NCBI RefSeq assembly: GCF_002797915.1 | Contig: NZ_PGTY01000001.1 | Coordinates: 496,001 to 560,000 of the forward strand | Origin: Yoonia maricola | Lineage (GTDB): Bacteria > Pseudomonadota > Alphaproteobacteria > Rhodobacterales > Rhodobacteraceae | Direction of reading: 5' to 3' | Length of the DNA: 64,000 nt | Shown here: one piece after another, positions 49,318-57,017 of the stretch | How positions within the stretch are numbered: the stretch's first letter is position 1 | Layout: every line of letters begins with the position of its first letter | Notes under the pieces: model-generated | The model's database searches: none | Seen by the model: only the letters and a program-made list of their open reading frames with translations | What the model was told of the DNA's origin: nothing | Position numbers and translations under genes: made by a program

Positions 49318-49923
49318 CTAGCTGAGTTGGTTTATAAAGCAGGCAGAAACTTCAGCGATTTGTTCGGGCGTGCTATCGCGCCGGAAGAAAGTTTTGAAGC
49401 CTGTTTCGGGGAACATCAGGTAGGTCTGGGTAGAGTGATCGACCAGATAATACTCTGGATCACCCTCTTGGACCCGGTAGTAGGTTTTATAGGCCTGGCT
49501 GGCCGCTTTGACTTGCTCAGGCGTGCCTGTCAGCCCGATCATGTCCTCATGGAAATTATCCGTAAAATCGCGCACCACCTCTACTGTGTCTCGCTGTGGA
49601 TCGACTGATATAAAGACAGTGCCCAGATCAAGCCCCTGATCTTCCAGTATATAAGCTGCTTGCGCGTTACGCGCGCTGTCGAGCGGGCAGACATCGGGGC
49701 AGAATGTATAGCCGAAATAGACTAAAGTCGGTTTGGTGATGACATCGGAATCTGTGACGGTTTCGCCTGTTTCTGAGACCAGTTCAAACGGGCCGCCAAT
49801 GGTGCTGCCAGCGACGGCCGTGTCGCCGCATGGATCGGGTGTGGCGTTCTGCGACTGCCATGCATAGATGCCGATCGCGGCGGCGGCAGCGAGGGTGGTT
49901 GATCCGAATATCACTGCTTTCAT
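49318..49923 (-). CDS. SCO1/SenC family copper chaperone
   Basis: 201 aa, starting at ATG 49923 with an AGGAGG ribosome-binding site. One N-terminal membrane anchor (residues 3-22) is followed by a periplasmic thioredoxin-like domain. The copper ligands are Cys75 and Cys79 in YFGYTFCPDVCPLDS and a later His in YYLVDHSTQTYLM. It also has VFISVDPQRDTVEVVRDF. It delivers copper to cytochrome c oxidase CuA or acts in thiol redox. It lies directly upstream of hemN on the same strand, with the FNR-like site between them. The longer frame to 50085 is not SCO-like. Confidence 0.92.
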   Translation of the reverse strand: MKAVIFGSTTLAAAAAIGIYAWQSQNATPDPCGDTAVAGSTIGGPFELVSETGETVTDSDVITKPTLVYFGYTFCPDVCPLDSARNAQAAYILEDQGLDLGTVFISVDPQRDTVEVVRDFTDNFHEDMIGLTGTPEQVKAASQAYKTYYRVQEGDPEYYLVDHSTQTYLMFPETGFKTFFRRDSTPEQIAEVSACFINQLS

Positions 49924-50098
49924 GAGTGCCTCCTGAAGCGATATGTGAGGTGATGCCACCGCTATCTTATCGCGGCGTACGTCAAAGCGCATTGGCGTAA
50001 TCGCCGCAGCGCGGTCACAACGCTGTGTTACGCGCGCAGTTCCCAAGGTCAAGCGGCATCGCGCAGCTTGGGTAAGGTGGATCATGATCCACCTCGCG

Positions 50099-50833
50099 TT
50101 AGCTGCGCTCGGCCTGCCGTTCGGCGATTACATCCTGTGCCAACTTTTGCGTATATTGGGCGAGTGCGGCCAGACTTTCATCGGCGGCACTGGCATCCTG
50201 TGCCTCAATCGCATCCGCAATACTGGTATGCAGAGATACGATCTTTTCCCGTGATCGCGCGCTGAAGGTGATCATATTCATCAAGGGTTGCATTGCTTCC
50301 ACAGCACCTGCCAGCTGATAGGACAACACCGGATTGCCCGCCGCATCAACCAATGCGCGATGAAATGCAACGTCCGACGCGCAAAAAGCCTCATCCGTGA
50401 GCCCGGGCTGGTTTTGCCTGTGCGCCTCGGCCCGCATGGTAGCAAGGTGGTCGGCAGTGCGACGTGTTGCTGACAGGGGTGCGCAGGCCCGCTCTAGCGC
50501 GTAGCGCGCTTCGCAAGCGGTCGCAAAGCTGATCTCATTCATTGACAACAAAAGCGTCGATGTCGTGATCTGCTGCCCGTAGGCATCTTCAAATTTTAGC
50601 CGGTTCACAAAAGCCCCACCGGTTGCCCCGCGTTGTGTGCGGATCAGGGATTGTGCGGCCAGTCTTTTCAGCGCTTCTCGTACCGTCGGCCGCGACACAT
50701 CAAATTGTTCGGCCAGTTCCGCTTCGGACGGCAAGCGTTCGTCAACCGGCAGGTCACCACAGATAATTGCATCGCGGATGGCTTTGGCAATCTGGGCTGA
50801 CAGATCAGCGGGGTTTTTTGGATCAATTTTCAT
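50099..50833 (-). CDS. GntR-family regulator, FCD (FadR-like) subfamily
   Basis: 244 aa. The winged helix spans about residues 10-75 (IRDAIICGDLPVDERLPSEAELAEQF, VSRPTVREALKRL). The all-helical FCD ligand-binding domain follows, with metal-ligand-type residues in CASDVAFHRALVDAAGN and LHTSIADAI. It is divergent from the DUF2182-DUF1326-DinB-dmdA run, with an operator candidate in the 75-nt gap. FCD regulators lie next to dmdA in other roseobacters, so it probably senses a DMSP-pathway metabolite (inference). The operator abuts its own start, implying autoregulation. Confidence 0.88.
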   Translation of the reverse strand: MKIDPKNPADLSAQIAKAIRDAIICGDLPVDERLPSEAELAEQFDVSRPTVREALKRLAAQSLIRTQRGATGGAFVNRLKFEDAYGQQITTSTLLLSMNEISFATACEARYALERACAPLSATRRTADHLATMRAEAHRQNQPGLTDEAFCASDVAFHRALVDAAGNPVLSYQLAGAVEAMQPLMNMITFSARSREKIVSLHTSIADAIEAQDASAADESLAALAQYTQKLAQDVIAERQAERS

Positions 50834-50858
50834 TTGTCAGACAATTAAACGTCTGACA
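50834..50858. promoter_or_regulatory. Palindromic operator candidate for the FCD GntR regulator
   Basis: Contains the 11-bp palindrome TTGTC-A-GACAA (50834-50844), and in addition perfect 8-bp arms TGTCAGAC and GTCTGACA (50835-50842 and 50851-50858) around AATTAAAC. FCD-subfamily regulators bind short palindromes of this TTGTC/GACAA kind. It lies against the regulator's start codon and 50 nt before the DUF2182 start, so it could control both directions. Confidence 0.65.
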
Positions 50859-50908
50859 TATGATTGTGCAAGTCTTGAGTCGCAGTTGACCGTTTGGGAG
50901 GGCGTCAT

Positions 50909-51676
50909 TTGCCGCATCTGGTGCGATCATCACTTTGGCTAATGTTTTTCGCCGCGATCCTTTTCGCGTGGTGGATGATGTATGTCATGGCGATGGACAT
51001 GGACCTTGATCTGTTGGGACGTCCGGGGCCTATGGGGCAGGCGATGGCGGATATGGACCCGCGTATGCCGATGGATATGCCGATGGCGCGCTTTGGTCCG
51101 CTTTTTGCAATGTGGGCGATCATGATGGCGGCGATGATGCTGCCCACTTTGGCACCCACGTTGACCACTTATGAGCGGCTGATGGTTAGTGCCGATGGGA
51201 CGCGCGCCGGGTGGGTTGGTGTACTGCTGGGTTACTTTATCGTCTGGGTCGGATTTGCCGCTGTGATCACCGCAGTCCAGCTTGCATTGCTTTTTGGTGG
51301 TGTGATCAATATGCTTGGCATCGCGCCAGTCTGGTTATCAGCGATTTTGCTGATCGTTGTTGGTGCTTTCCAATTCAGCCGCGTGAAGGAAGTCTGCCAT
51401 GGTGTGTGCCATGCGCCTATGACGTACTTCCTGGGCCATTGGAAAACCGGTTTCATTGGTGGTTTGCGTATGGGGCTGCGTTTAGGCGCATTTTGTGTGG
51501 TGTGTTGCTGGGGCTTCATGGCTCTCGGCTTTGTTGGTGGCGTGATGAGCTTGGCCTGGATGGGGCTGGCGACGCTGTTGATGGTATTCGAAAAACTGCC
51601 CGACATCGGGCACCGTGTGATCAAGCCGACCGGCGTGGTGCTTATCGCTGCTGGTCTGGGTTTGGCTGTCTTTTAG
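50909..51676 (+). CDS. DUF2182 integral membrane protein
   Basis: A 255-residue polytopic protein of the DUF2182 family (predicted metal-binding membrane proteins), with about six helices. Seen: FAMWAIMMAAMMLPTLAPTL, the Cys/His segment VKEVCHGVCHAPMTYFLGHW, and FCVVCCWGFMALGFVGGVM, which could bind metal. The start is taken as TTG 50909 behind GGGAGG; an in-frame TTG at 50894 is the alternative. It is followed after 13 nt by a DUF1326 gene, a pairing I remember as common. The biochemical role is not established. It is the first gene of a run leading into dmdA. Confidence 0.82.
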   Translation: MPHLVRSSLWLMFFAAILFAWWMMYVMAMDMDLDLLGRPGPMGQAMADMDPRMPMDMPMARFGPLFAMWAIMMAAMMLPTLAPTLTTYERLMVSADGTRAGWVGVLLGYFIVWVGFAAVITAVQLALLFGGVINMLGIAPVWLSAILLIVVGAFQFSRVKEVCHGVCHAPMTYFLGHWKTGFIGGLRMGLRLGAFCVVCCWGFMALGFVGGVMSLAWMGLATLLMVFEKLPDIGHRVIKPTGVVLIAAGLGLAVF

Positions 51677-51689
51677 AAAGGGACGAGAA

Positions 51690-52400
51690 ATGGCTGAAAA
51701 GAAACGCGCACCTGCTGATCGCCTGCCGATCTCGCAACGCATTGACCAGCGGATGGAAAGTAACCCGCTGCGTCGCAAGATGAAGCCGACGGAATGGGCG
51801 ATTAAGGGCGAGCTGTTCTTGAATTGCTCTTGCACCGTCTTCTGCCCCTGTGTCGTCAGCCTTGGCGCGCACCCCCCGACCGAAGGCCATTGCCACGCAT
51901 GGATGGCGATTGCCATTGATGAGGGACATTTTGAGGGCGAAGACCTTTCCGGGCTGAACGTCGGGCTGCTGGTTGATATTCCGGGCCGGATGGCCGAGGG
52001 AAACTGGAAGGTGGCGGCTTATGTCGACGAACGCTCCACTCAAAAGGCCTATAACGGCATTTTGCAGATTTTCAGTGGTGCGGCTGGCGGGACAACAGGC
52101 CTTTTCACTATGCTGGTCTCCGAGATCATCGGGGCAGAGCGCGAGAAGGTCGAGATCGTGCGCGAAGGCACTAAGCGTGGCATCTACATCGGGCGCAAGA
52201 TCCAAGGTGAGATTGAGATGATGAAGGGCGCTAGCCCCGATCATCCTGTCATGATCAGCAACTCCAAATACTGGATGGGTCCGGATATTATCGCGGCGGC
52301 CGGAACAAAGTCGCGGGTGCGTGACTATGGCCGCGTTTGGGATTTTGGCGGAAAATCAGCCGAGATTTGCCCGATTGACTGGAAAGGGCCCAAGCCGTGA
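51690..52400 (+). CDS. DUF1326 family protein
   Basis: 236 aa. The DUF1326 core begins near residue 38 with WAIKGELFLNCSCTVFCPCVVS, a dense Cys-x-Cys-x4-Cys-x-Cys cluster likely to bind metal. It continues HCHAWMAIAIDEGHFEG, DLSGLNVGLLVDIPG and SGAAGGTTGLFTMLVSEIIG. There is no signal peptide or membrane helix, so it is probably cytoplasmic, perhaps meeting DUF2182 at the membrane. The stop overlaps the DinB gene's GTG start, showing coupling. The function is unknown; the association with dmdA is discussed as a finding. Confidence 0.83.
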   Translation: MAEKKRAPADRLPISQRIDQRMESNPLRRKMKPTEWAIKGELFLNCSCTVFCPCVVSLGAHPPTEGHCHAWMAIAIDEGHFEGEDLSGLNVGLLVDIPGRMAEGNWKVAAYVDERSTQKAYNGILQIFSGAAGGTTGLFTMLVSEIIGAEREKVEIVREGTKRGIYIGRKIQGEIEMMKGASPDHPVMISNSKYWMGPDIIAAAGTKSRVRDYGRVWDFGGKSAEICPIDWKGPKP

Positions 52401-52900
52401 TCACGCCAGAGTATTGTCAGACCATGGCGCGCTACAATGCGTGGCAAAACAATGGTCTGCGCGAGATGATTTCGCAGATGGATCGCGCAGAGCTGGACAA
52501 AGACCGTGGTGCCTTCTTTGGGTCAATCATGGCCACACTCAATCATCTTTTGTGGGGCGATACGCTGTGGATGAGCCGATTTGATGGTGGGGCTGGCCCT
52601 GATGTTCCTGCTGAAGATCACAAAGAAATGACGCCAACCCCTGCTGCGTGGGCGGCAGAGCGGTTTCGGATAGATGCGCGCATCAGCCTATGGGCGCAAA
52701 GCCTGCACGCCGTTGATCTTGTTGGCGATCTGACATGGTATTCTGGGCTTTCCAAGCACGAGATGTCCAAGCCCATCGGGCTTTGCGTCATGCAGCTTTT
52801 CAACCACCAAACCCACCATCGCGGCCAGGTCCATGCGATGTTGACCGCTGCAGGGCAGAAACCCAACGACACTGACCTGCCTTTCATGCCTGAGGACTGA
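52397..52900 (+). CDS. DinB family protein
   Basis: A 167-residue four-helix-bundle protein of the DinB/YfiT-like group. The metal-binding histidines are visible in MATLNHLLWGDTLWM near residue 50 and the HHRGQ-type motif QLFNHQTHHRGQVHAML near 135. Family members include thiol-dependent (bacillithiol, mycothiol, glutathione) transferases and many unknowns. The start is GTG 52397, overlapping the DUF1326 stop. dmdA begins 2 nt after its stop codon, so it is tightly coupled to DMSP demethylation; a thiol-transfer or detoxification role is a guess. Confidence 0.85.
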   Translation: MITPEYCQTMARYNAWQNNGLREMISQMDRAELDKDRGAFFGSIMATLNHLLWGDTLWMSRFDGGAGPDVPAEDHKEMTPTPAAWAAERFRIDARISLWAQSLHAVDLVGDLTWYSGLSKHEMSKPIGLCVMQLFNHQTHHRGQVHAMLTAAGQKPNDTDLPFMPED

Positions 52901-52902
52901 CC

Positions 52903-54003
52903 ATGGCTGTGATTGCACCTTCCCGCCGCATTCGGCGTACCCCTTTCACTGACGGCGTCGAAGCTGCGGGTGTGAAAGGCTATACTGTCTATAACCATAT
53001 GCTGCTGCCCACGGTTTTTCGCAGCGTCGAAGAGGACTATCGCCACCTCAAGACCGCTGTGCAGGTCTGGGATGTGGCGGTCGAACGGCAAGTGGAACTG
53101 CGCGGCCCTGATGCGGCCCGCCTGATGCAAATGCTGACGCCGCGTGATCTGCGGGGCATGATGCCGGGGCAGTGTTACTATGTGCCGATCGTTGATGAGA
53201 CAGGGGGCATGTTGAATGATCCCGTCGCATTGAAGCTCTCGGAAGATCGCTGGTGGATTTCGATTGCTGATAGTGACTTGCTATTTTGGGTAAAAGCCCT
53301 GGCCTATGGGTATCGTTTGGATGTGTTGGTGGATGAGCCCGATATCTCGCCGCTTGCGGTGCAAGGTCCGCTGGCCGACGATCTGATGGCGCGTGTTTTT
53401 GGTGATGCGGTCCGTGCGATCAAGTTCTTCCGTTTTGGTTGGTTCGATTTTCAGGGTGTCAGCATGGCGGTGGCCCGTTCGGGATACTCCAAACAGGGCG
53501 GTTATGAGATTTACGTTGATGGTACCAAAAACGGGATGCCGCTGTGGAACGCGCTTATGGAGGCGGGCCGGGATCTGGATGTCTATGCCGGTTGCCCGAA
53601 CCTGATCGAGCGGATCGAGGCGGGTTTGCTGTCTTACGGAAACGATATGACCCGCGAGAACACGCCGCATGAATGTGGGTTGGGGCGGTTTTGTTCGACC
53701 CAGACGGCGATTGGTTGCGTGGGCCGCGACGCGCTTTTGCGCGTTGCCAAGGAGGGGCCGACCCAGCAGATCCGCGCGATAGCCATTGATGGCGAGATAC
53801 CGGCTTGCGATCAGATCTGGCCAATCGTGGCGAAAGGCAAGCGGATCGGGCAGGTTACATCTGCGGCGAAATCGCCGGACTATCATACCAATGTTGCCAT
53901 CGGTATGGTGCGTATGACCCATTGGGATGAGGGCACGCGGGTTGAGGTGCAGACACAGGATGGACCAATGACCGCGACGGTCCACGAGAATTTTTGGATA
54001 TAG
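52903..54003 (+). CDS. dmdA: Dimethylsulfoniopropionate demethylase
   Basis: 366 aa, a GcvT-fold, tetrahydrofolate-dependent enzyme. DmdA removes a methyl group from DMSP, giving methylmercaptopropionate and 5-methyl-THF. It reads as DmdA rather than glycine-cleavage T protein by the N-terminus RRTPFTDGVEAAGVKGYTVYNHM, the single-chain length, TPRDLRGMMPGQCYYVPIVDE, and RSGYSKQGGYEIYVDG. Downstream acuI and the divergent FCD-GntR regulator are the usual dmdA partners in roseobacters. It is closely preceded by the DinB gene (2 nt). The 5-methyl-THF product would feed methionine synthesis, for which part of a split synthase is encoded at 25-28 kb. Confidence 0.9.
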   Translation: MAVIAPSRRIRRTPFTDGVEAAGVKGYTVYNHMLLPTVFRSVEEDYRHLKTAVQVWDVAVERQVELRGPDAARLMQMLTPRDLRGMMPGQCYYVPIVDETGGMLNDPVALKLSEDRWWISIADSDLLFWVKALAYGYRLDVLVDEPDISPLAVQGPLADDLMARVFGDAVRAIKFFRFGWFDFQGVSMAVARSGYSKQGGYEIYVDGTKNGMPLWNALMEAGRDLDVYAGCPNLIERIEAGLLSYGNDMTRENTPHECGLGRFCSTQTAIGCVGRDALLRVAKEGPTQQIRAIAIDGEIPACDQIWPIVAKGKRIGQVTSAAKSPDYHTNVAIGMVRMTHWDEGTRVEVQTQDGPMTATVHENFWI

Positions 54004-54089
54004 TTCCAGACGTGCCGTCGGAGCCTCCGGCGGAAGTTTGATTGGACGAAGAAAGACAGGGCCGTGCGCCCCGAATGAGAGGAAAATGA

Positions 54090-55073
54090 ATGTTTAAGGC
54101 TTTGATGGTTGAAAAAGACGACGACGGCAAAACCAGCGCATCGGTGCAGGAATTGTCGCTGGATCAACTGCCAGAAGGCGATGTGACCGTTGCCGTCGCA
54201 TATTCTACCGTCAACTATAAAGATGGGCTGTGCATTGGTCCGGGCGGTGGATTGGTGCGCAATTATCCCCATGTGCCGGGTATCGATATGGCCGGTACGG
54301 TAGAGGCCTCTGACGATCCACGCTATAAGGCGGGCGACAAAGTGGTTCTGACTGGCTGGCGTGTCGGAGAGGCCTATTGGGGTGGCTATAGCCAAAAGGC
54401 GCGTGTAAGGGCTGATTGGTTGGTGCCCTTGCCGGATGGTTTGGACACACGGCAGGCTATGGCTGTGGGAACGGCTGGTTTTACTGCGATGCTGGCTGTG
54501 ATGGCGCTGGAGGATCACGGCATCAAGGATGGACCGGTTCTTGTAACAGGTGCAGCCGGTGGTGTGGGCTCGGTCGCGACCGCAATTCTGGCGAACCTCG
54601 GCTATGAGGTTGCGGCGGTGACGGGCCGCCCTGAGACGGGTGATTACCTTAAGTCACTTGGCGCGGGCCGGATCGTCGCGCGCGATGAGATCAATGAAAT
54701 TACACGCCGTCCGCTTGAGGCTGAAACATGGGGTGGCTGTGTTGATGCCGTTGGAGGTGAGATGCTGGCCCGTGTGCTGGGCCAGATGAAATATGGTGCC
54801 TCTGTTTCCGCCGTGGGCCTGGCGGGTGGTGCGGGTCTGCCTGCGTCGGTCATTCCGTTTTTGTTGCGGGGCGTGAACTTGCTTGGGATCGACAGTGTGA
54901 TGCAACCTTATGACAACCGCGTGCGCGCCTGGGCCCGGATCGCAAAGGACCTGCCGATGGACAAATTGGAGGCGATGATCCAACCCGCGACCCTGAACGA
55001 TTTGCCGCAGTTGGGTCGGGATATCCTGCAAGGGCAGGTGAAGGGGCGTGTTGTTGTTGATGTGAATGGCTGA
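54090..55073 (+). CDS. acuI: Acryloyl-CoA reductase AcuI
   Basis: 327 aa, a zinc-independent medium-chain dehydrogenase (YhdH/AcuI group). It reduces toxic acryloyl-CoA from DMSP breakdown to propionyl-CoA with NADPH. Seen: STVNYKDGLCIGPGGGLVRNYPHVPGIDMAG, VLTGWRVGEAYWGGYSQKARV, VLVTGAAGGVGSVATAILANLG (cofactor fold) and GLAGGAGLPASVIPFLLRGVNLLGIDS. The start ATG 54090 follows AGAGGAAAATGA. It lies 86 nt after dmdA on the same strand and ends in a strong terminator, which closes the dmdA transcript. Confidence 0.93.
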   Translation: MFKALMVEKDDDGKTSASVQELSLDQLPEGDVTVAVAYSTVNYKDGLCIGPGGGLVRNYPHVPGIDMAGTVEASDDPRYKAGDKVVLTGWRVGEAYWGGYSQKARVRADWLVPLPDGLDTRQAMAVGTAGFTAMLAVMALEDHGIKDGPVLVTGAAGGVGSVATAILANLGYEVAAVTGRPETGDYLKSLGAGRIVARDEINEITRRPLEAETWGGCVDAVGGEMLARVLGQMKYGASVSAVGLAGGAGLPASVIPFLLRGVNLLGIDSVMQPYDNRVRAWARIAKDLPMDKLEAMIQPATLNDLPQLGRDILQGQVKGRVVVDVNG

Positions 55074-55123: not shown

Positions 55124-55331
55124 CGTGCCAAACAGAGGCAATCCGATTTGGCATGTCGTGCTGGACGCGGCCCGCGCCTTGATAGCAAAACACCTGTAAA
55201 TGCTGCGGTTGCGCGGTAGACCGTGCGCTTGCAGCGTCGTTTCAACGTGACAATGTGGCGCATTTTCGGGTTAATATGTGGCACCAACCCGTCAAGATGG
55301 TTGGACAATAATAGTCAACAGGGAAATAATC

Positions 55332-57017
55332 ATGGCACCTAAACCTCCTTTATCGGAACTCCCGATTAAGACCGCCGATGTCGGTTTTTATCGAGGGTTC
55401 AGCGTCAATGTGACGGTTATCAGTAAGATCATCATCAGCGTGCTCGTTGTCTGGGCGATTGTCTGGCCGGAATGGGCTGGCGAAGTATTGGGCGCTTGGA
55501 ACGCTGTGATCCTCAATAACTTTGCATCATGGTACATCTGGACGGTGACATTCTTTGTCATTGTTTGTCTTGGCCTTGCTCTTTGGCCGACCGCGGGTCG
55601 TATGAACCTTGGGCAGCCGGGTGAGAAGCCGGAATTTTCGAACTTCTCTTGGTTCTCGATGATGTTTGGTGCCGGTATCGGTGTCGGCATGCTGACATGG
55701 GCCGTGGCTGAACCGGTCGCGCATTTCAAAAACAACCCTTCTGTTATTCAAGGTGTTACAACAGCGCTGGAAGCTGACAACGTGCGCACTGCTTATGTGT
55801 GGTCTTATCTACACTGGGGATTGGGCGCTTGGGCATGTTATGCCGTGGCCGGCCTTGCACTGGCATTCTTTAGCTATCGCCGTGGGCTGCCATTGACGAT
55901 CCGGTCGGCGTTGACGCCATTGTTTGGCAAGGCGCTGTCGGGCACTTTGGGTCATATCATCGATATTGTGGCTGTTGTGGCGACCATCCTTGGTGTGGCA
56001 CAAACCCTTGGCTTCGGGGTTGAGCAGTTCGTTGCCGGTCTGACACGGATCGGGATCGGGGGGCTGGCGCTGGAAGATGGGTCCGCTACGACGCTGGGCA
56101 TCATCGTCGCGCTTTTGGTCATCATGGGTGCGTCGACCCTCTCGGCTTTGTCGGGCGTGGGTAAGGGCATCAAATGGCTGTCGAACATCAACATGGTCTT
56201 GTCGATTGCCTTGCTGAGCTTCTTCATCCTGTTTGGTGCGACATGGTTTGGCGCAACAGCTTTCTTCGTAGGCATTTGGGACTATCTGGTTGCGTTACCG
56301 GGATTGAGCTTCAACGTCTACAAATCTGATGGTGTCGAAGGTTCTGAGGCATTCTTGCTGGCGCAGTGGCAGGGCTGGTGGCCTGTGTTCTACTGGGCAT
56401 GGTGGATTGCTTTTGCACCATTCGTTGGCTTGTTCCTTGCGCGCATTTCACGTGGCCGGACAATCCGAGAGTTCGTGCTGGGTGCGATGATCGTGCCATC
56501 GCTGATGTGCTTTGTCTGGTTTGCATGGGCGGGCGGCACAGCCGTTGATCTTGAGCTAAACGGCAATGCCGGCGGGTTAATCCTTGATGCAGCCAACGGT
56601 GACAAGATCTTTGCGATGACCGAGTTCATGTTGTCACCCATCAGTCAGGTTTTGGCCTGGGGGATGGCCGCCATGATCGTTGTCTTGCTGATGACCTTCC
56701 TTGTCACTTCGGCTGACTCGGCTGTTTTGATCGTGAACACGATCAACGCGGCTGGTGACGAAGGGCCAAAGGCGCGTCCGCATATCTTGTTCTGGGGTGC
56801 AGCGCTTGGACTGGTTGTGGCTGGATTGCTGATATCAGGCGGGACCGGAGCGATCCAAACCGCGATGGTCATCGGCGCGCTGCCGTTCTCAATTGTGATG
56901 GTCTTGATGTGCTTTGCGTTGATCAAGGCGATCTACAATGACGGCCGCCGTGAAGCTGCCGGGGTGCCAACGACCCATGGTGAGATTCAGGCCGCTGCGG
57001 CAACGCCTGCCGAGTAA
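55332..57017 (+). CDS. BCCT-family transporter (DMSP/betaine-type substrate likely)
   Basis: 561 aa with about 12 membrane helices. It belongs to the betaine-choline-carnitine transporter family, which takes up quaternary ammonium or sulfonium compatible solutes. Seen: SWFSMMFGAGIGVGMLTWAVAEPVAHF (the glycine-rich TM with substrate aromatic residues), WSYLHWGLGAWACYAV, and the TM8 signature YWAWWIAFAPFVGLFLARISRGRTIREF. It starts at ATG 55332 behind ACAGGGA. The tail is short, so osmosensing is not obvious. Lying next to dmdA-acuI, it is a good candidate DMSP importer, but glycine betaine or choline are equally possible by sequence. Confidence 0.88.
   Translation: MAPKPPLSELPIKTADVGFYRGFSVNVTVISKIIISVLVVWAIVWPEWAGEVLGAWNAVILNNFASWYIWTVTFFVIVCLGLALWPTAGRMNLGQPGEKPEFSNFSWFSMMFGAGIGVGMLTWAVAEPVAHFKNNPSVIQGVTTALEADNVRTAYVWSYLHWGLGAWACYAVAGLALAFFSYRRGLPLTIRSALTPLFGKALSGTLGHIIDIVAVVATILGVAQTLGFGVEQFVAGLTRIGIGGLALEDGSATTLGIIVALLVIMGASTLSALSGVGKGIKWLSNINMVLSIALLSFFILFGATWFGATAFFVGIWDYLVALPGLSFNVYKSDGVEGSEAFLLAQWQGWWPVFYWAWWIAFAPFVGLFLARISRGRTIREFVLGAMIVPSLMCFVWFAWAGGTAVDLELNGNAGGLILDAANGDKIFAMTEFMLSPISQVLAWGMAAMIVVLLMTFLVTSADSAVLIVNTINAAGDEGPKARPHILFWGAALGLVVAGLLISGGTGAIQTAMVIGALPFSIVMVLMCFALIKAIYNDGRREAAGVPTTHGEIQAAAATPAE

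Follow-up and report, generated by a model that had tools for sequence, protein, structure and literature searches.

A putative copper-handling gene pair in the dmdA unit

In a 64,000 nt stretch of the Yoonia maricola genome (contig NZ_PGTY01000001.1, positions 496,001–560,000, hereafter the window), the dimethylsulfoniopropionate (DMSP) demethylase gene dmdA is preceded by genes for a DUF2182 membrane protein, a soluble DUF1326 protein and a DinB-superfamily protein. The survey described below supports the DUF2182-DUF1326 pair, with DinB, as a component of the dmdA unit that is conserved in many genera. We propose, at what we consider even chances, that the pair may handle Cu(I) and may have joined a GntR-controlled and acrylate-responsive DMSP unit (dmdA-acuI) through a single recruitment in the Rhodobacteraceae, DinB being an optional member. 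The unit consists of a divergent GntR/FCD regulator gene, followed on the plus strand by DUF2182-DUF1326-DinB-dmdA-acuI:

50099–50833, minus strand: GntR/FCD regulator, divergent (PF00392 and PF07729)
50835–50858, no strand assigned: double operator TGTCAGACA-N7-GTCTGACA, between the regulator and DUF2182 genes (pattern search)
50909–51676, plus strand: DUF2182/PpoB2-type membrane protein, predicted to bind Cu(I) (PF09948, 194 bits, cut-off 28.7)
51690–52400, plus strand: DUF1326, soluble, with five invariant cysteines (CxC-x3-CPC...C; PF07040, 169 bits, cut-off 25)
52397–52900, plus strand: DinB-superfamily protein, optional unit member (PF05163, 78.7 bits, cut-off 23)
52903–54003, plus strand: dmdA, DMSP demethylase (equivalog NF009133, 677 bits, cut-off 410)
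54090–55073, plus strand: acuI, acryloyl-CoA reductase (TIGR02823, 448 bits, cut-off 297)

Profile searches and the coordinates agreed with the gene order, families and spacing given in the original prediction, with 13 nt between DUF2182 and DUF1326, a 4 nt overlap between DUF1326 and DinB (a gap of −4) and 2 nt between DinB and dmdA. The DUF2182 gene likely starts with the TTG at 50909 behind a GGGAGGG sequence, rather than at the mechanical start at 50894, and AcuI scored slightly below the stricter AcuI equivalog NF051456 (423.8 versus a cut-off of 440). A GC-rich stem-loop with a weak T tail (54015–54033) is located between dmdA and acuI, and possibly reduces read-through into acuI.

Conservation of the arrangement in the Rhodobacteraceae

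We surveyed the family at genus level in 394 genomes, with DmdA scoring over the NF009133 cut-off in 169 genomes and a DUF2182 relative present in 213. Both were found in 144 genomes, dmdA only in 25, DUF2182 only in 69 and neither in 156 (Fisher p 2e-28, computed like all our Fisher tests ignoring relatedness), with 21 of the 169 dmdA genomes in this table being assigned from best E-values and the total agreeing with the tally. For each of the two proteins 150 matches were listed and more exist, the dmdA list representing 150 loci in 148 genomes. A listed DUF2182 gene is found within 2.4 kb of dmdA in 105 of these 150 listed loci, and is upstream and co-oriented in 105/105, at distances that fall mostly in a one-gene and a two-gene class; one further listed DUF2182 gene is on the dmdA contig, 55 kb off.

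We subsequently examined 140 of the 150 listed dmdA loci and 39 DUF2182 loci from genomes without a listed dmdA; the ten dmdA loci left out, dropped evenly, come from the 105 that have a listed DUF2182 gene close by. A local HMMER search detected the DUF2182-DUF1326 pair in 110/140 dmdA loci, DinB in 66 and acuI in 116, which, for the Rhodobacteraceae, bears out the dmdA linkage that the original prediction had suggested surveying across Rhodobacterales. DinB behaves as an optional third gene, being present in 60 of the 110 dmdA loci carrying the pair. A further 80 named loci from Roseobacter sp. CCS2, Loktanella, Yoonia, Roseovarius, Sulfitobacter, Tateyamaria and others, with DUF1326 as the query, contained the complete pair in 80/80, dmdA in 70/80 and acuI in 74/80. 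Nine of these 80 belong to genomes already represented among the examined loci, and the conservation, gap and operator counts were made after removing duplicates. Across the fetched and named sets, 13 DUF2182 loci have neither dmdA nor acuI in view, several of these being at contig ends.

The spacing within the unit is operon-like as judged from the gene coordinates: the gap between DUF2182 and DUF1326 has a median of 10 nt and is ≤30 nt in 209/212 distinct loci measured, DUF1326 and DinB overlap by exactly 4 nt in 90/130, and the DinB-dmdA gap has a median of 0 nt (116 distinct loci). The gap between dmdA and acuI is longer (median 57.5 nt in 178 distinct loci, ≤30 nt in 62 of these).

One operator precedes the unit

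A GntR regulator of the unit's kind was present in 102 of the 140 fetched dmdA loci (local HMMER search). The sequence TGTCNGACA was found in 151/176 distinct GntR-DUF2182 intergenic stretches (156/182 before duplicates were removed), where it is often part of a double element, TGTCNGACA-N7-GTCTGACA. When counted by locus type, using stretches cut differently from those behind the 156/182 count, the element was detected before DUF2182 in 17/20 loci lacking dmdA and in 113/148 loci having both, and before dmdA in 5/7 loci lacking the DUF genes. This conserved operator is thus generally found behind the regulator gene, whether or not dmdA or the DUF genes are present, and its presence before dmdA alone and before DUF2182 alone indicates that the DUF genes lie between one operator and dmdA. 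It is a single site in the window genome at ≤3 mismatches, with a reversed-pattern control also giving one chance match.

A probable tie of the pair to the acrylate side of the unit

The original prediction viewed the three genes as an accessory module for DMSP demethylation, which holds insofar as they are conserved in the dmdA unit; the demethylase gene itself, however, comes and goes at least ten times. Within the clade of linked DUF1326 sequences, the state of dmdA (present or absent at the locus) requires 21–22 changes, at least 10 of which are forced by well-supported branches. The dmdA gene is absent from 69 of the 213 DUF2182 genomes, and in the 28 loci from these genomes with strong DUF2182 matches (the 41 weaker-match genomes being outside this count), DUF2182 and DUF1326 are both present in 28/28 and acuI in 23/28. 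The pair is not demethylation-specific, and on this comparison often persists where dmdA seems to have been lost. In addition, acuI is adjacent in 101/110 dmdA loci with the pair versus 15/30 without DUF2182 (p 1e-6, contig ends ignored). Acrylate induces the dmdA and acuI genes of Ruegeria pomeroyi approximately 12–14-fold and DMSP approximately 10–14-fold, and methylmercaptopropionate (MMPA) does not induce them (PMC3338564). Taken together, the turnover of dmdA, the company of acuI and the induction pattern in Ruegeria favour the acrylate side of the unit over methanethiol or MMPA.

Predicted metal sites of DUF2182

DUF2182 corresponds to Pfam PF09948 (COG5486), the family of PpoB2, which in Marinomonas mediterranea is a copper chaperone for the tyrosinase PpoB1; the original prediction of no settled function was therefore incorrect for DUF2182, as PpoB2 is a studied member. 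The cysteine motifs proposed earlier for DUF2182 (VCHGVCH and CVVCC) and DUF1326 (CSCTVFCPC) are present in the translations. Residues Cys163/167/196/199/200 and Met72/76/77 of DUF2182 are conserved in 215–216 of 216 distinct family proteins and in 28–29 of 29 proteins from outside the family, and the loop following the first helix is Met-rich (mean 6.0 of 31 residues in the family, 4.7 of 25 outside). Based on loop charges and the positive-inside rule, the Met-rich loop is predicted to be outside (periplasmic) and the Cys163/167 loop inside. The AlphaFold model has long helices (pLDDT 83); no match stood out in a fold search against solved structures (best Z 5.4), and a sequence search against these returned only two chance-level entries. 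In the open literature searched we found no paper naming DUF2182 or DUF1326, and one naming COG5486.

The Cys-rich sites look metal-binding, which agrees with the metal part of the earlier proposal that the proteins handle a metal or a thiol, and for DUF2182 the PpoB2 family, the Met-rich loop and the near-invariant Cys and Met residues suggest copper specifically; a role tied to demethylation, methanethiol or MMPA was not supported.

DUF1326 and DinB

Five cysteines of DUF1326 (Cys46/48/52/54/68) are invariant in an alignment of 24 diverse relatives. A sequence search against solved structures gave no match, and the model resembles the acetoacetate decarboxylase (ADC)-like fold (VIA-align Z 10–11 over 155–156 residues at 3.4–3.5 Å, to 3bgt and 4jmc), with Foldseek matching MppR 4jmd (E 2.7e-5). 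DUF1326 might on these grounds be an ADC-like enzyme whose substrate is a CoA ester or small acid from the DMSP/acrylate route, a reading that we consider very improbable, as the Foldseek ADC matches have TM-scores of only 0.32–0.42 with a root-mean-square deviation >10 Å and sequence identity of approximately 10 percent, and a common fold proves no function. ADC enzymes use a Schiff-base lysine, and no conserved lysine was found in DUF1326 (Lys in at most 12/24 rows of any alignment column), where it is the cysteines that stand out among the invariant residues.

The DinB protein gave two weak entries in a sequence search against solved structures. Its metal-site histidines, pointed out in the original prediction, were confirmed, with His50 invariant among 52 aligned relatives and His137 and His141 each kept in 90 percent or more of these, and the histidine triad is intact. 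The DinB superfamily includes thiol S-transferases. It is conceivable that the unit provides electrophile defence without copper transfer, with the DUF1326 and DUF2182 cysteines and DinB scavenging or conjugating acrylate-type electrophiles and AcuI clearing acryloyl-CoA. The frequent company of AcuI, the acrylate induction in Ruegeria and the intact DinB triad would fit such a role, which we nevertheless regard as rather unlikely, since DinB is missing from 50 of the 110 dmdA loci with the pair, the pair occurs in other phyla with no DMSP or acuI gene in view (see below), and this chemistry would need neither Met-rich loops nor membrane Met residues.

Candidate client enzymes

Tyrosinase, the copper methanethiol oxidase MtoX and DMSP lyases were compared with the distribution of the pair. 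Each test used 80 genomes, hand-chosen with a leaning to more complete genomes from a pool of 153 (in which each group was either a random draw or complete), with counts read by hand. Tyrosinase was rare in every class, being detected in 1/26 genomes with dmdA and DUF2182, 1/18 with dmdA only, 1/20 with DUF2182 only and 0/16 with neither, which amounts to 2/46 DUF2182-bearing genomes and 3/80 overall. No tyrosinase (PF00264) match was found in the window genome or among the proteins of the operon, and tyrosinase was rejected as the client.

In other bacteria the mtoX gene is located beside that of the copper chaperone SCO1/SenC (PMC5739008), and the pair might metallate MtoX, allowing the methanethiol released by DMSP demethylation to be oxidised, a reading near to that of the original prediction. 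MtoX does occur in the window genome, and it was found in or beside the unit on Marinovum algicola plasmid pMaD9, in 4/179 fetched family loci and in 8/80 named loci, although one of the four family loci (L030) has dmdA and lacks the pair. MtoX tracks dmdA (27/44 genomes with versus 10/36 without dmdA, all matches over the cut-off, p 0.0035); given dmdA, it did not clearly track DUF2182 (18/26 with versus 9/18 without, p 0.22). In genomes without dmdA, MtoX was found in 7/20 with DUF2182 versus 3/16 without when any match is counted (p 0.46), and in 3/20 versus 2/16 for strong matches. Being absent from 8/26 genomes with dmdA and DUF2182, and from 13/20 with DUF2182 only (17/20 when weak or fragmentary matches are discounted), MtoX is not supported as an obligate client, and we judge metallation of MtoX to be an unlikely purpose of the pair. 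Neither tyrosinase nor MtoX fits as obligate client, and the earlier suggestion of a role tied to methanethiol or MMPA was not upheld, given the lack of MMPA induction of dmdA-acuI in Ruegeria and the distribution of MtoX.

The mtoX gene of the window genome is located elsewhere, with a membrane protein gene and IclR-like and Crp-like regulator genes in the surrounding 4.4 kb, in which no SCO1 or MauG-like open reading frame (ORF) was recognised by eye. One type of MtoX adjoins a conserved membrane protein of approximately 216 aa with a YHGLNPGMGW motif and no Pfam match, which may be its partner (loci L301:1492-3567, from the window genome, L291:11481-13626, L058, L069, L238, L248, L258 and L290).

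Cupin DMSP lyases (PF16867, the lyase family covered by this test, with DddP and DddD outside its scope) were considered as a reason for the pair in genomes lacking dmdA, and were found in 13/26 genomes with DUF2182 only versus 9/28 with neither (p 0.27). Among the dmdA genomes, lyases over the cut-off were detected in 5/12 with and 7/14 without DUF2182. Nine ORFs beside acuI in loci without a listed dmdA were scanned for a DMSP lyase, and these were five universal stress proteins, a BCCT piece, a HIT protein and two without a Pfam match. In one genome (G211) a PF16867 match was located approximately 6 kb from DUF2182.

The pair outside the DMSP unit

DUF1326 was found in 55 of 397 Pseudomonadota genomes, 24 of which belong to the family of the window. 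Outside this family DUF2182 adjoins DUF1326 in 20/23 short loci (counted by eye), mostly in the order DUF1326-DUF2182, which is the reverse of that in the DMSP unit. Among 117 plasmid records with a DUF1326 match, ten were opened, and in the nine non-DMSP records the pair is side by side in 9/9, covering alpha- and betaproteobacteria, actinobacteria and a haloarchaeon (Polaromonas, Nocardioides, Cupriavidus pHG1, Natrinema, Leisingera, Streptomyces, Novosphingobium, Rhodococcus and Paraburkholderia), with the two genes adjacent but divergent in Polaromonas. The pair is thus older and wider than the DMSP unit. On Cupriavidus necator H16 pHG1 (L294:5034-6733), DUF1326-DUF2182 is directly followed by a gene for a GDCCVxC-domain (seleno)protein, which could be a third partner of the pair in other lineages.

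An unrooted DUF1326 tree of 102 rows was made by a quick search, has some long branches among the outside rows, and included 40 randomly drawn dmdA loci having DUF1326, with orphan loci lacking both dmdA and acuI left out. A long branch with support 100 separates all 73 unit-linked sequences from the other 29 rows, one of which is a family member that has the gene order seen outside the family. Because the linked sequences lie on one side of this branch, the simplest reading of the tree would be that the pair entered the DMSP unit once, with reversal of the gene order.

Outside the family, 37 genomes have a dmdA match, and the loci of 26 were examined. Two loci from other alphaproteobacterial families (L308 and L326, from f229 and f159) have the pair beside dmdA, which suggests that the unit moved as a block by transfer. 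Weak DUF1326-like pieces precede dmdA in another locus (L317). The wide occurrence of the pair with no DMSP genes in view, together with the 25/169 dmdA genomes without DUF2182, could mean that it is a general metal-homeostasis pair sitting behind a convenient promoter and unrelated to DMSP. We find such mere neighbourhood improbable, considering the tight spacing, the one operator, the dmdA and acuI company that is kept across approximately 100 genera, and the two loci in other families holding the pair beside dmdA.

Neighbouring genes

Downstream of the unit, a BCCT transporter gene is a common, but not constant, neighbour across loci:

55278–57017, plus strand: BCCT transporter (PF02028)

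In some of the loci L002–L180 a universal stress protein gene is located between acuI and the BCCT gene. These loci also contain recurring ORF clusters, mostly behind acuI, with a photolyase (63 loci), a CMAS-type methyltransferase (40) and a class V aminotransferase (69) as representatives. On the other side of the unit, a SCO1/SenC copper protein gene adjoins the regulator gene in the window (49318–50085, minus strand). It was considered as part of the system and rejected, as only the window's own region scored among loci L001–L180; ORFs of similar size were seen at the same position beside the regulator in Roseobacter sp. CCS2 (L211).

Proposed working of the pair

In the copper-handling scheme, inner-membrane DUF2182 would bind Cu(I) by its periplasmic Met-rich loop, and the metal would pass along a membrane Met/Cys path (M72/M76/M77 and C196-x2-C199-C200) to the cytosolic CxxxC (C163/C167), which may exchange Cu(I) with the five-cysteine cluster of soluble DUF1326. 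The pair could in this way hold copper protein-bound while acrylate and acryloyl-CoA, a thiol-reactive electrophile, arise and are removed by AcuI, and/or supply some copper enzyme. The gene order, the operator, the conserved candidate ligands, the pairing of the two genes and the absence of dmdA from loci that keep the pair are observed; copper as the metal, the topology, the direction of transfer, the single recruitment and the connection with acrylate stress are inferred.

Several observations weigh against this reading. Zinc, iron or a different soft metal might occupy the Cys-rich sites, or these might serve in thiol-disulfide chemistry, and the DUF1326 model has a pLDDT of 73, with block means of 43 and 62 in residues 51–70, part of the cysteine region. 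The induction by acrylate was reported for the dmdA-acuI unit of another genus, and its carry-over to the operator of the window is presumptive. Some pair loci have no acuI in view (9/110 with dmdA and 5/28 without, some at contig ends), as do L308 and L326 within approximately 4 kb, and the weaker-match genomes are outside the count of dmdA-less loci. There was no clear enrichment of cupin DMSP lyases in dmdA-less DUF2182 genomes, and as no DUF2182 was found in 25/169 dmdA genomes, DUF2182 would be dispensable for demethylation.

Like the DUF2182 protein of the window, PpoB2 of M. mediterranea is a membrane protein of the same Pfam family with a proposed copper role, whereas the window's protein has no adjoining tyrosinase and is paired with DUF1326 in a GntR-dmdA-acuI unit. 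The R. pomeroyi operon also has dmdA followed by acuI, an order found in 24/26 dmdA-bearing Roseobacter genomes (PMC3338564); the main text of that paper mentions no 'DUF' or 'GntR', whereas in the window DUF2182, DUF1326 and DinB are located between the operator and dmdA. The mtoX-SCO1/senC-mauG operon likewise places a copper chaperone gene amid DMSP and methanethiol metabolism, but with a chaperone of another family (SCO1) (PMC5739008), and MtoX does not clearly track DUF2182 in the Rhodobacteraceae. Plasmid pMaD9 of Marinovum algicola DG 898 has the same pair in the same place (MALG_05029 and MALG_05028) in a cluster that, unlike that of the window, also holds an acyl-CoA synthetase and MtoX. 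The depositors labelled the products 'Transmembrane protein involved in DMSP breakdown' and 'protein involved in DMSP breakdown', giving no mechanism, and to this extent both genes had already been annotated as taking part in DMSP breakdown. The open literature, searched for the families, the dmdA neighbours and the operon (with subscription papers outside the scope), gave no paper that we could connect with the DUF2182-DUF1326/dmdA link.

The balance between DMSP demethylation and cleavage sets how much oceanic sulfur becomes dimethyl sulfide, and two families almost without literature precede dmdA in the 110/140 examined loci. More broadly, and tentatively, copper handling may be a conserved and unrecognised part of bacterial DMSP and acrylate catabolism, in which a general two-protein Cu(I) relay of bacteria and haloarchaea would have been made acrylate-inducible by marine Rhodobacteraceae through its first place in the GntR-dmdA-acuI unit. 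If the pair does handle copper, DMSP catabolism would gain a metal dependence that is testable in cultured strains, and DUF1326 would gain a function as partner of DUF2182, far beyond marine bacteria.

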